A stretch of DNA of 64,000 nucleotides from Candidatus Roseilinea mizusawaensis (GTDB taxonomy: Bacteria; Chloroflexota; Anaerolineae; J036; Brachytrichaceae), in NCBI GenBank assembly GCA_016841965.1, contig JAEANN010000054.1, forward strand, positions 186,001-250,000, written 5' to 3'. Positions 51,278 to 56,469 of the stretch are shown here, piece by piece (the first letter of the stretch is position 1; each line of letters begins with the position of its first letter). Made by a program: the position numbers and the translations under genes. The notes beneath the pieces are model-generated. The model was not told the DNA's origin. It did no database searches and saw only the letters and a program-made list of their open reading frames with translations.

Positions 51278-52747
51278 TCACAGCGCAGGCTTGCGCAGAT
51301 GCCACTCCGTGTTGCGCTGGAATGCGTCGGCGGCGCGCAGCACGGTTTTCTCGTCGAACGCCGCGCCCATCAACTGCATACCAATGGGCAGGCCGGCCGT
51401 GTCGAAGCCGCACGGGATGCTCACACCACAAATGCCGGCCAGGTTCATCGTCAGTGTGAAAATGTCCGAGAGATACATCTGAATCGGATCGTCGGCCTTC
51501 TCGCCGATCTTGAAGGCGGTGGTCGGCGAGGTGGGCGCCACGATCAGATCGACCTGGGCGAAGGCGCGCTCAAATTCTTGCTTGATCAACGTGCGCACTT
51601 TCTGCGCCCGCACGTAGTAGGCGTCGTAATAGCCGGCGCTGAGGGCATATGTGCCCAGCATGATGCGGCGCTTGACCTCGGCGCCGAAGCCTGCGCCGCG
51701 CGTCTTGCGGTAGGTGTCCACCAGGTCTGCGCCGGGGACGCGCAAGCCATAGCGCACGCTGTCAAAGCGGGCCAGATTGGCCGACGCCTCGGCGGTGGCG
51801 ATCAGGTAATACACCGGCAGCGCCAGAGTGGTGCTGGGCAGGCTGATGTCGATCACGCTTGCGCCCAGGCTGCGCAGGGTTTCAATGCCGGCGCGCACGG
51901 CCTCGGTCACTTCAGGCTGCATGCCGGGGATGAAATACTCACGCGGCACGCCGATACGCAGCCCGCGTATGTCGCCGTTCAAAGCCTGTTCCCAGCCCTC
52001 TACCGGCCTGGCGGCGCTGGTCGAATCGTGCGGGTCATGCCCGGCGATCACCTCCAGCATGATTGCAGCGTCGCGCGCGTCTTTGGCCAGCACGCCCACC
52101 GAGTCCAGCGATGAGGCATAAGCGATCAAGCCATAGCGCGAGACACGGCCATACGAGTTTTTGAGGCCGGTGATGCCGCACAACGCCGCCGGCTGGCGCA
52201 CGCTGCCGCCGGTGTCGCTGCCCAACGCAGCGCAGCACAGATCGGCGGCTACCGCAGCCGCGCTGCCGCCCGACGACCCACCCGGCACACGCGCCTCGTC
52301 CCACGGATTGCGCGTGACGCCAAAAGCCGAGTTCTCGGTGGAGGAACCCATAGCAAACTCGTCGGTGTTGGTTTTACCCAGCAAGACGGCGCCGGCTGCG
52401 CGCAAACGGGCCACGCAGGTGGCATCCCAGGCCGGTGTGTAGTGCTCCAGAATGCGCGAACCGGCTGTGGTGCGCAGCCCGCGCGTGCTCAACACATCCT
52501 TGATGCCGAGAGGAACGCCGAGCAGCGGTTGATCGTTGAACGCCGCTGCGCCCTCGCGCCTCAGGCGCTCGTCCGCTGCAGCGGCCTGTTGCAGCGCCTC
52601 GTCTGCATTTACCGTCAGAAAAGCGTTCAGGCGTGGGTTCAGCGCGTGGATGCGCGTCAGACAAGCGCGGGTGAGCGCGGTTGCAGTAACATGGCCGGCG
52701 CCCAGGCTGGCGCGGGCTTCGTGGATTGTAAGAGCGCAAAGGTTCAT
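51278..52747 (-). CDS. gatA: Glutamyl/aspartyl-tRNA amidotransferase subunit A
   Basis: GatA releases ammonia from glutamine for the conversion of Asp-tRNA(Asn) and Glu-tRNA(Gln). The 489-residue protein has the amidase triad: Lys in LGIKDVLSTRGLRTTAGSRI, the Ser pair in GSDTGGSVRQPAALCGITGL, and PGGSSGGSAAAVAADLC. Length is standard. It follows gatC by 20 bp. gatB, which completes the complex, is not in the window. Confidence 0.97.
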   Translation of the reverse strand: MNLCALTIHEARASLGAGHVTATALTRACLTRIHALNPRLNAFLTVNADEALQQAAAADERLRREGAAAFNDQPLLGVPLGIKDVLSTRGLRTTAGSRILEHYTPAWDATCVARLRAAGAVLLGKTNTDEFAMGSSTENSAFGVTRNPWDEARVPGGSSGGSAAAVAADLCCAALGSDTGGSVRQPAALCGITGLKNSYGRVSRYGLIAYASSLDSVGVLAKDARDAAIMLEVIAGHDPHDSTSAARPVEGWEQALNGDIRGLRIGVPREYFIPGMQPEVTEAVRAGIETLRSLGASVIDISLPSTTLALPVYYLIATAEASANLARFDSVRYGLRVPGADLVDTYRKTRGAGFGAEVKRRIMLGTYALSAGYYDAYYVRAQKVRTLIKQEFERAFAQVDLIVAPTSPTTAFKIGEKADDPIQMYLSDIFTLTMNLAGICGVSIPCGFDTAGLPIGMQLMGAAFDEKTVLRAADAFQRNTEWHLRKPAL

Positions 52748-52767: not shown

Positions 52768-53088
52768 CTAGTCGCCGTTGTCAAAAGTCGCCTGCACTTC
52801 AAAGCTGGCGCCGTCGGTGCGCGGCGCGTTGGCCAGCGCCTCCTCGCGCGAGAGGCCAGGGGCAGGGATGTCTTCGGCCCGCATCACATTGCGCGCATCG
52901 AGCACAGTAGCCGTGGGGGGAATATCGTCCACATTCACCGTCATCAGCGTAGCGGCGTATTCCAGGATGGCTGACAACTGGCCGGCGTAGCGCGATTTCT
53001 CATCCTCGGTCAAGTCGAGCCGCGCCAGCAGGGCGATGCGCTCGACTTCAGCCGGGCTGAGCGTGGGGGCAGGCGTGGGATCAGGCAT
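52768..53088 (-). CDS. gatC: Glutamyl/aspartyl-tRNA amidotransferase subunit C
   Basis: GatC is the short protein that clamps GatA and GatB together. The 106-residue sequence starts after a Pro-rich lead with LSPAEVERIALLARLDLTED and continues SRYAGQLSAILEYAATLMTV, with LREDxP-type MRAEDIPAPGLSREEALANA near the end. It lies between bactofilin (18 bp) and gatA (20 bp) on the same strand. Confidence 0.96.
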   Translation of the reverse strand: MPDPTPAPTLSPAEVERIALLARLDLTEDEKSRYAGQLSAILEYAATLMTVNVDDIPPTATVLDARNVMRAEDIPAPGLSREEALANAPRTDGASFEVQATFDNGD

Positions 53089-54112: not shown

Positions 54113-54142
54113 GTGCGTGTCCTGGGCTGAAAAAAGAGAGTA

Positions 54143-54226
<84 letters not shown>

Positions 54227-54275
54227 ATTTTGGGCCGCAACAGCCTGTCGCCCGGCTGCTGAAACCGCGACAGGT

Positions 54276-54493: not shown

Positions 54494-56251
54494 TTAGTCC
54501 ACAATCTTGATGTGCAGCTCTTTGAGCTGCTTATCGTAGACCGGCGACGGCGCGCCGGCCATCACGTCCATAGCCTGCTGATTCTTCGGGAAGGCGATCA
54601 CTTCGCGAATATTCGGCTCGTCGCAGAACAGCATAGTCAGGCGGTCGACGCCAGGGGCAATGCCGCCATGGGGGGGCGCGCCATACTCGAACGCTTCCAA
54701 CAAATGCCCGAACTTGCGCCGCGCGTCTTCCATCTCCAGGCCGATCAAGCGCATGATGATCTCTTGAATGTCGCGGCGGTGAATTCGGACGCTGCCACCG
54801 CCGACTTCGTAACCATTGCACACCAGGTCATACTGCTTGCTGAGCACTTTGCCCGGCTCGCTCTCCAGCATGGGGATGAACTCGTCTTTCGGCGCAGTGA
54901 ACATGTGGTGCGAGGGGTCCCAGCGATTTTCTTCTTCGTTCCACTCAAAGAGCGGGAAGTCCACGATCCAGGCGAACGCCAGCACGCCGGGGTCGGCCAG
55001 TTTGAGCCGGCGGCCCATCTCCAACCGCAACTCGCTCATCACCTCGTTGACCACTGTGGGCGTGTCGGCCACCAGCATGAGCAGGTCGCCGGGATGTGAG
55101 CCGGCAGCAGCCAGAATGGCAGCTTTCTCGGCGTCACCTAGTTTAGCGCCGGCGCCCTGGCTGCGAATGCCGCTTTCGTCATGCACCAGCGTGACCAGAC
55201 CTTTAGCGCCTTCGCGCTTGGCGAACTCGGTCAATTCGTCAATCTGTTTGCGGGTGTAGTTGCCGCAGCCGGGCGCAACCAGCCCTTTGACCATCGGCGC
55301 GCCGGCGAAGACATTAAAAGCCGAGCCGCGCGTCGCCGCTGTCACATCGAACAACTCCAGGCCAAAGCGCAAGTCGGGCTTGTCGTTGCCGTATTTGGCG
55401 ATCACTTCGGCGTACGAAAGACGCTTGAAGGGTTTGAACAGCAATTGCTTGCCGACATGCTGTTCGACAAATTCGGTGAGCAGCCCCTCTACCAGATCAA
55501 GCACGTCATCGCGGTCAACAAAGCTCATTTCGATGTCGAGCTGGGTGAATTCGGGTTGACGGTCGGCGCGCTGATCTTCGTCGCGGAAGCAGCGGGCAAT
55601 CTGGAAGTAACGTTCGACGCCGGCCACTTGCAAGAGTTGCTTGAGCTGCTGGGGACTTTGCGGCAGGGCGTAGAAAGTTCCCGGATAGATACGGCTGGGC
55701 ACCAGATAGTCGCGCGCGCCTTCGGGCGTGGTCTTGAACAGAATGGGCGTTTCAATCTCCAGAAATCCGCGCGCGTCGAGATAATCGCGGATGAACTTGC
55801 AGAAGCGATGGCGCATGGCCAAATTGCGCTGCATGCGTTCGCGGCGCAGGTCAAGGTAACGATACTTCAGGCGCAGGGTCTCGTCCACGTCGCGAGCATC
55901 ACTATCGATCAGGAAGGGTGGCGTTTTGGCCGGGTTGAGAATTTCCACGGCATCGGCCATCACTTCGATATCGCCAGTAGCCATGCGCGGGTTGTGCATG
56001 CCTTCGGGGCGCAATTGCACCTTGCCCTGGACTTGCACCACAAACTCGCTGCGCAGCGACTCGCCAAGTTTGAACTGCTCTGGCGTCACGTTGGCCGGGT
56101 TGATAACCACCTGGGCAATGCCCCAGCGATCGCGCAGATCGATGAAGATGACGCCGCCATGGTCGCGCCGACGGTGCACCCAGCCGGCGAGTGTGACACA
56201 GTGTCCGGCATGCTCAGCCCTTAACTCGCCACATCGATGTGTCTTGAACAT
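54494..56251 (-). CDS. aspS: Aspartyl-tRNA synthetase, predicted non-discriminating
   Basis: A 585-residue class II bacterial-type AspRS. The N-terminal anticodon-binding domain ([19 protein letters not shown]) is followed by motif 2 ([20 protein letters not shown]), a GAD insertion near 290-400 and motif 3 (GVDRLTMLF). In the anticodon loop it has RRRDH31GG and RPEG84, residues known from non-discriminating enzymes, where discriminating ones have RRRDLG. It should therefore charge both tRNA-Asp and tRNA-Asn, leaving GatCAB to amidate Asp-tRNA(Asn). GatC and gatA lie downstream. The leader contains an Asn/Asp-rich peptide and a terminator, suggesting attenuation control. Confidence 0.96.
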
Positions 56252-56277
56252 GTGCCTTGCTCCTCATTTTTAGTGCC

Positions 56278-56305
56278 AAAAAAAAGCCGCCTGGTGGGGC
56301 GGCTT
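56278..56305 (-). terminator. Intrinsic terminator in the aspS leader
   Basis: On the minus strand AAGCCGCC-CCACCA-GGCGGCTT is followed by an uninterrupted T-tract (eight T in total, two of them in the stem). The tract ends 27 bases before the aspS ATG, too close for a separate promoter in between, so aspS must be transcribed through this terminator. Confidence 0.88.
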
Positions 56306-56377
56306 CCGTCTCTACGCTGCTGCTCGCTGTGTGTTGCGCGCGACAGATCTAGCGACGCCCCGCTTAGCGGGCGGCGT
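56278..56377 (-). promoter_or_regulatory. Predicted ribosome-mediated transcription attenuator of aspS
   Basis: Three alternative pairings are visible on the minus strand. Segment 1 (56377-56367, ACGCCGCCCGC) pairs with segment 2 (56363-56355, GCGGGGCGT) over 9 bp with a 2-base bulge and UAA, the leader stop codon, as loop. Segment 2 can instead pair through GGGGCG with CGCCCC in segment 3, the 5' arm and loop of the terminator. Stalling on the Asn/Asp codons would cover segment 1, free segment 2 and block the terminator. Ribosome release at the UAA would mask segment 2 and allow termination. Confidence 0.72.
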
Positions 56378-56420
56378 TATTGTCGTCGTTGTTATTGGCG
56401 CGCAGAATTCGTGCAAACAT
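56364..56420 (-). CDS. aspS leader peptide rich in Asn and Asp
   Basis: An 18-codon frame encodes MFARILRANNNDDNNAAR. Residues 9-15 are Asn-Asn-Asn-Asp-Asp-Asn-Asn, exactly the two amino acids whose tRNAs a non-discriminating AspRS charges. The frame ends at a TAA in the loop of a hairpin and is followed by an intrinsic terminator before aspS. It starts 49 bases after the guaB stop codon. No strong ribosome-binding site precedes the ATG; a TATCAT hexamer 8 bases upstream might be the -10 box of a promoter, giving a leaderless or nearly leaderless transcript. Confidence 0.7.
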   Translation of the reverse strand: MFARILRANNNDDNNAAR

Positions 56421-56469
56421 TGTGGGATATGATACCGCAAATCCACGCGGGCAAATCTGGGAGCTATCT

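Follow-up and report, generated by a model that had tools for sequence, protein, structure and literature searches.

Ribosome-mediated attenuators are known to control the amino-acid operons trp, his, leu and ilv, and in E. coli a tRNA synthetase, pheST, is also controlled by a leader-peptide attenuator. In Firmicutes, aspS and asnS are controlled by T-box riboswitches, and mycobacteria possess attenuators with leaderless poly-cysteine ORFs. Attenuators of the ribosome-mediated kind have reportedly been surveyed by Lopatovskaya et al. in 2010. Published accounts include those of the his and ilvB attenuators (PMC9413887, PMC10272879). In the literature that we searched, no leader-peptide attenuation of aspS was found; subscription papers, including Lopatovskaya et al. 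2010, were outside the scope of the search. In the present study, we analyzed a 64-kb stretch of Chloroflexota DNA (the window) and its relatives. As judged from sequence comparison and modelling, aspS is preceded by a device that is very probably a translation-coupled transcription attenuator sensing charged Asn and Asp tRNAs. This indicates that in Chloroflexota a leader peptide controls a tRNA synthetase, using a pair of codons that we did not find described in the literature searched.

The mechanism is of a known kind; it is new in acting on aspS, in pairing Asn with Asp codons, in occurring in Chloroflexota and in its predicted near-leaderless start. Like the attenuators of amino-acid operons, the device combines a codon-rich short leader ORF with 1:2, 2:3 and 3:4 pairings and with an intrinsic terminator that precedes the gene, but here the gene encodes an aminoacyl-tRNA synthetase, two amino acids are read, and the ORF mostly lacks a Shine-Dalgarno sequence and lies 6-13 nt from a -10 box. 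It is similar to pheST, by description and not by sequence, in being a leader-peptide attenuator of a tRNA synthetase, whereas pheST reads only Phe codons, and thus one tRNA, in Proteobacteria. The T-boxes of Firmicutes act on the same gene by antitermination and respond in effect to the same signal, uncharged tRNA, but they bind the tRNA directly through a conserved stem I and T-box sequence. In the mycobacterial attenuators, too, translation of the leader peptide begins leaderless, as is predicted here; they differ in using Cys codons before cysteine genes in Actinobacteria.

Sequence inspection of the window revealed, on the minus strand, the order guaB (57915-56470), leader device and aspS (56251-54494); the identity of guaB was confirmed by a protein family search. 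The first-pass annotation had described an 18-residue frame with Asn-Asn-Asn-Asp-Asp-Asn-Asn at residues 9-15, and this leader ORF (MFARILRANNNDDNNAAR*) was indeed present at 56420-56364, running from the ATG at 56420 to the end of the TAA at 56364 and translated as M F A R I L R A N N N D D N N A A R stop. The regulatory codons AAT AAC AAC GAC GAC AAT AAC (Asn3 Asp2 Asn2) occupy 56376-56396 of the same strand. Upstream, a predicted leader promoter contains the -10 element TATCAT (56429-56434, minus strand), 8 nt before the leader ATG, and the ORF has no Shine-Dalgarno sequence, so its translation is predicted to start at or very near the 5' end of the mRNA.

Three further segments of the minus strand complete the device. 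According to folding, region 1 (GCGCGCC, 56397-56403) pairs with GUCGCGCGC in region 2 if it is not covered by a ribosome; this 1:2 pairing was counted on alignment A1, which consists of 20 leaders of the window's family. Region 2, the antiterminator strand (GGGGCGUCGCUAGAUCUGUCGCGCGC, 56336-56361), pairs with the 5' arm of the terminator, as supported by covariation. The intrinsic terminator (regions 3:4, GGAAGCCGCC CCACCA GGCGGC TTTTTTTT, 56278-56307) folds with -16.3 kcal/mol, its arms being arranged around the loop as GGAAGCCGCC-CCACCA-GGCGGCUUUUUUUU. This minus-strand terminator is absent from the list of a generic terminator scanner, and folding nonetheless gives the above energy. The terminator claimed earlier was therefore found, but it ends 26 bases, not 27, before the aspS ATG at 56251. 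A hairpin that had been noted directly behind the Asn/Asp codons, CCCGC-TAA-GCGGG, whose loop is the stop codon, is present at 56371-56359 and is a genus-specific addition, seen only in the three genomes of the window's genus (L002-L004 in A1). A 6-bp GGGGCG/CGCCCC pairing had also been reported; GGGGCG at 56361-56356 can pair with CGCCCC in the 5' half and loop of the terminator, but the antiterminator of most relatives exceeds 6 bp, for example GGGCG-C-CUUAGUC with GACUAAG-G-CGCCC. The codon run, a terminator 5' of the gene and an antiterminator that shares the 5' arm of that terminator, and so excludes it, were thus all present.

Behind the device, the ribosome-binding site and start codon of aspS (AGGAGCAAGGCACATG) lie at 56249-56264, and the gene (54494-56251) encodes an aspartyl-tRNA synthetase with H31 and G84 (TIGR00459, 712 bits). 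The amidotransferase subunit genes gatC (52768-53088; TIGR00135 above cut-off) and gatA (51278-52747; TIGR00132 above cut-off) follow on the minus strand. A tRNA-Leu (CAG) gene lies between aspS and gatC on this strand (54142-54227). In the window, no Rfam family, T-box included, was matched, and among 16 related leader loci Rfam matched only RNase P RNA and a tRNA and no leader; the search for a known element suggested by the first-pass annotation thus returned none. At E-values up to 1, a covariance model of the family's leaders, which includes the window's own leader sequence, matched the window's genome only once, at the leader (E 8.5e-21).

The proposed mechanism is as follows. RNA polymerase would start from the predicted leader promoter; as only 8 nt separate its -10 box from the leader ATG, the 5' untranslated region of the translated leader mRNA would be very short or missing. 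When charged Asn- and Asp-tRNA are plentiful, the ribosome would pass the run and, once close to the stop codon, cover or release region 2, whereupon the terminator would form and leave aspS untranscribed. A shortage of one or the other charged tRNA would make the ribosome stall on the Asn/Asp codons and cover region 1, allowing region 2 to pair with the 5' arm of the terminator and transcription to continue into aspS. Without translation, region 1 would pair with region 2 and the terminator would form.

To follow the device among relatives, we oriented and read the aspS loci of 24 genomes of the window's family. The same device was found at 20 of the 24, with differing and nearly always Asn/Asp-rich peptides, including MFARPARANNNDDNDAAR, MRRTLRTNNDDDNDAFYQAGVA, MQNYVSNNNNDNNGA and MNWGLNANDNDNNGASPGAA; a few were poorer in these residues (MHSLNVSSGDNDGALRLGVA, MRSEAANNRRNDAA). 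The order was Asn/Asp ORF, mostly a conserved GGCGTCGCYTRGTC...GTCGCGCGC block, terminator and aspS. No leader was present at the remaining four aspS loci, which belong to genera g3 and g6. The gene 5' of the leader varies (guaB, tRNA-Lys and others) while the leader stays, indicating that the device belongs to aspS. At L021, L022, L023 and L025, a tRNA-Lys gene ends just 5' of the leader ORF and may be co-transcribed with it. In the alignment proposed earlier as a check, relatives kept the Asn/Asp run, the alternative pairings and the terminator, and the other leader residues and the upstream gene varied.

The alternative structures were evaluated on alignment A1. The terminator showed standard pairs in 93.8% of cells and six pairs with double changes across the 20 sequences. 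The covariation score of the antiterminator was reached by none of 500 shuffles and lay above that of slid versions. Column 142 takes part in both helices and changes together with column 76 (GC:10, AU:9) and with column 151 (UA:8, CG:7). Since these covariation counts include relatedness, they support the helices rather than prove them. In folds of single sequences, the antiterminator appeared in most leaders.

We further modelled the position of the ribosome by placing its edge 11 nt past the A-site codon and calculating, for each A-site position, the probability that the 5' arm is sequestered; the model uses equilibrium folding, and co-transcriptional kinetics are outside its scope. The median sequestration was 0.73 over the Asn/Asp codons and 0.44 afterwards, i.e., from three codons past the run to the stop. 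In 38 of 40 leaders, sequestration was higher over the Asn/Asp codons than after them, the direction expected if stalling favours the antiterminator; at L258, for example, it dropped from 0.70 to 0.10 as the modelled ribosome left the run. The window's own leader responded weakly and was one of the two exceptions (0.38 over the Asn/Asp codons and 0.44 after), perhaps because of the genus-specific CCCGC-UAA-GCGGG hairpin. In this equilibrium model, its sequestration was close to 0.50 with codons 13-16 in the A site and 0.13 with codon 17 there.

Beyond the family, a class-wide search yielded the sequences upstream of aspS at 120 loci of other families. Of these sequences, 18 contain a short ORF in which five or more of eight residues are Asn or Asp; across 20 dinucleotide shuffles, such sequences numbered 0.4 on average (range 0-3). 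The comparison confirmed, at the level of sequence, that the Asn/Asp leader before aspS is real and far beyond chance. Most of the 18 belong to family f27, whose leaders are of the type FANNNNNDNDD...VGRSLAG and lie 3' of a perfect TGCTATAAT box. A covariance model built from 13 f27 leaders gave one strong match at the aspS leader in each of 24 f27 genomes, all 24 with an Asn/Asp run, and in the window's family it also detected four leaders (E 2e-6 to 9e-3). In f27, the antiterminator (CGUUGGGCGA with UCGCCCAACG), the terminator (UCGCCC with GGGCGA) and the 1:2 pairing (GCUUCGCC with GGGCGAAGC) are nearly invariant, and comparison with the pairs of the window's family therefore points to one architecture for which the two families use different sequences. 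Divergent leaders with a terminator occurred in families f9, f21, f54, f55 and f60 and in the Anaerolineales record L036. When the strict filter was applied to 80 aspS loci of a genome collection covering many phyla, only Chloroflexota passed (L032, L033, L036 and L039). Two sets of model matches were rejected: those of model R2 below 40 bits in other genomes were plain terminators with no leader ORF in the cases inspected, and that of model R1 in G242 (L295) had no Asn/Asp ORF.

The run itself behaves as coding sequence. Among the Asn/Asp codons of the relatives' runs, third bases are almost equally C (133) and T (122), and the run stays in frame with the ATG and varies in length by whole codons. 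The RNA behind the run is conserved in f27 and yet read in two frames, as VGRSLAG or as YRWAKPC, showing that the RNA and not the peptide is kept there. In most leaders, the ATG lies 6-13 nt after a -10-like box matching TATAAT at 5-6 of 6 positions, and most have no Shine-Dalgarno sequence; these leaders are therefore predicted to be leaderless or nearly so. The f27 leaders L151, L196 and L200 have a longer spacing (16-20 nt) and GAGG before the ATG. A GAGG in genus g7 abuts the -10 box and was taken as promoter sequence. The g2 genomes have no clear -10 box beside the leader ATG, and a tRNA-Lys gene lies just upstream there.

In genome G238, the f27 model also matched at a second place, before asnA, the asparagine synthetase gene (E 2.4e-7; locus L299, minus strand). 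Its leader peptide MFDYSFANFNNNNNNNNAVLRGVGRSASNLQT, starting MFDYSFANFNNNNNNNNAVLRGVGRS, has the FAN and VGRS framing of the f27 aspS leaders, but its run consists of eight consecutive Asn and no Asp, and a terminator precedes asnA. G238 also has an aspS leader, with the sequence FANDNNNDNDD. The asnA leader looks like a copied and retuned attenuator; with an Asn-only run before asnA, the codons follow the gene. This single case supports the prediction of codon-specific sensing. Within the f27 sample, asnA was found in G238 only. A second asnA, in G349 (L308), has a Shine-Dalgarno-led leader, MKTHIHTVTNNNHNPRARLWEGDS, and a terminator, and is possibly independent in origin; no Asn/Asp ORF was present at the other 21 asnA loci examined. 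Swapping Asn and Asp codons, or comparing the aspS and asnA leaders, would make codon-specific sensing directly testable.

The specificity of AspRS was assessed by aligning the window's enzyme to P. aeruginosa AspRS (4wj3), with which it agrees at H31 and G84, unlike T. thermophilus AspRS1. His31 and Gly, both anticodon-domain positions, are what we take to be diagnostic of a non-discriminating AspRS of the P. aeruginosa type, and in one set of 26 loci with a leader, 22 had them. The window's AspRS is thus most likely non-discriminating and would charge both tRNA-Asp and tRNA-Asn, after which GatCAB would complete Asn-tRNA-Asn, so that Asp-tRNA-Asp and Asn-tRNA-Asn are both supplied; this is most likely why the leader reads Asn and Asp. 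The codon mix of a leader could then serve as a natural readout of the tRNAs served by an AspRS. The tRNA-Asn begins with T, which pairs with A72 (U1-A72), and U1-A72 in tRNA-Asn is named as a requirement in one study (PMC4206432). AspRS as the only source of Asn-tRNA was ruled out, as AsnRS was over the cut-off in 54 of 60 relatives. The window genome also encodes AsnB, so charging of tRNA-Asn need not rest on AspRS alone. AsnB over the cut-off is missing in several leader-bearing relatives (e.g., G017 and G020), no AsnA was found in 28 genomes of the window's family, and several of the leader-bearing relatives lack both. According to PMC4206432, the only AspRS of Bdellovibrio is non-discriminating although AsnRS is present as well, and in bacteria with AsnRS and GatCAB the tRNA specificity of AspRS still needs clarifying. 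The dual Asn-tRNA routes of Bdellovibrio resemble the present case in having one bacterial-type AspRS beside AsnRS and GatCAB and a U1-A72 tRNA-Asn; the difference is that enzyme activity was demonstrated there, and the accessible text describes no leader regulation (PMC4206432).

Several explanations compete with a ribosome-mediated attenuator. Short ORFs and terminators are common, and 54 of the 120 other-family upstream regions contain some terminator, so one could imagine a chance ORF in a GC-rich spacer next to the terminator of the upstream gene; the excess of filtered ORFs over shuffles, the constant order at 20 of 24 family loci and the covariation of terminator and antiterminator leave this a practically negligible prospect. 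A riboregulator binding tRNA or protein (a T-box or AspRS autoregulation), with the ORF incidental, would fit the strong conservation of region 2 (GGCGTCGCYTRGTC...GTCGCGCGC) in the family. That conservation is already explained by its two pairing partners, and the frame and AAY/GAY identity are kept while the sequence varies, the run at asnA is purely Asn, and Rfam, T-box included, matched neither the window nor any of the 16 related leaders, making such a riboregulator very unlikely. It is more doubtful still, to the point of being scarcely credible, that the leader senses queuosine, whose modified tRNAs read the NAY codons of Asn, Asp, His and Tyr: a single Tyr or His does lie inside some runs (NNYDDND, NYRDDDND, THNDDDND), but both are rare and unsystematic, and the genes controlled are aspS and asnA, not queuosine genes. 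The earlier reading as ribosome-mediated attenuation is, in contrast, supported by the conservation, the pairings and the pure-Asn leader of asnA, with the weak modelled stall effect in the window's own leader as a reservation; stalling and antitermination in the cell are predicted.

A closer rival accepts the attenuator but holds that it senses only Asp status through biosynthetic coupling, with an AspRS specific for tRNA-Asp; Asn is made from Asp, and the Asn codons would just add sensitivity. The wide occurrence of AsnRS suits this reading, as do G006, G152, G169 and G238, which have Phe at AspRS position 31 and, like locus L039, lack the non-discriminating residues while their leaders keep Asn codons. 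In G238, Phe31 is accompanied by Asp in place of Gly. A simple correlation between Asn codons and His31 is thus incomplete and was rejected. His31/Gly84, as in the Asp/Asn enzyme of P. aeruginosa, nevertheless occur in most leader-bearing genomes, and we regard the Asp-only reading as possible but rather unlikely. On balance, it is probable, with some reserve, that one leader gauges how well two tRNAs together are charged, since one non-discriminating synthetase and GatCAB supply both, that it starts leaderless, and that a copy moved to asnA and was retuned to Asn only.

Two minor observations concern AspRS and asnS. L280, L282, L285 and L039 form an f27-type AspRS subgroup with Phe/Asp for His/Gly, in which the aspS leader keeps Asn codons. 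Upstream regions of asnS at 30 loci contained no Asn/Asp leader; at L124, L125 and L133, asnS appears to have little 5' untranslated region and lies right behind a GTATACT box.
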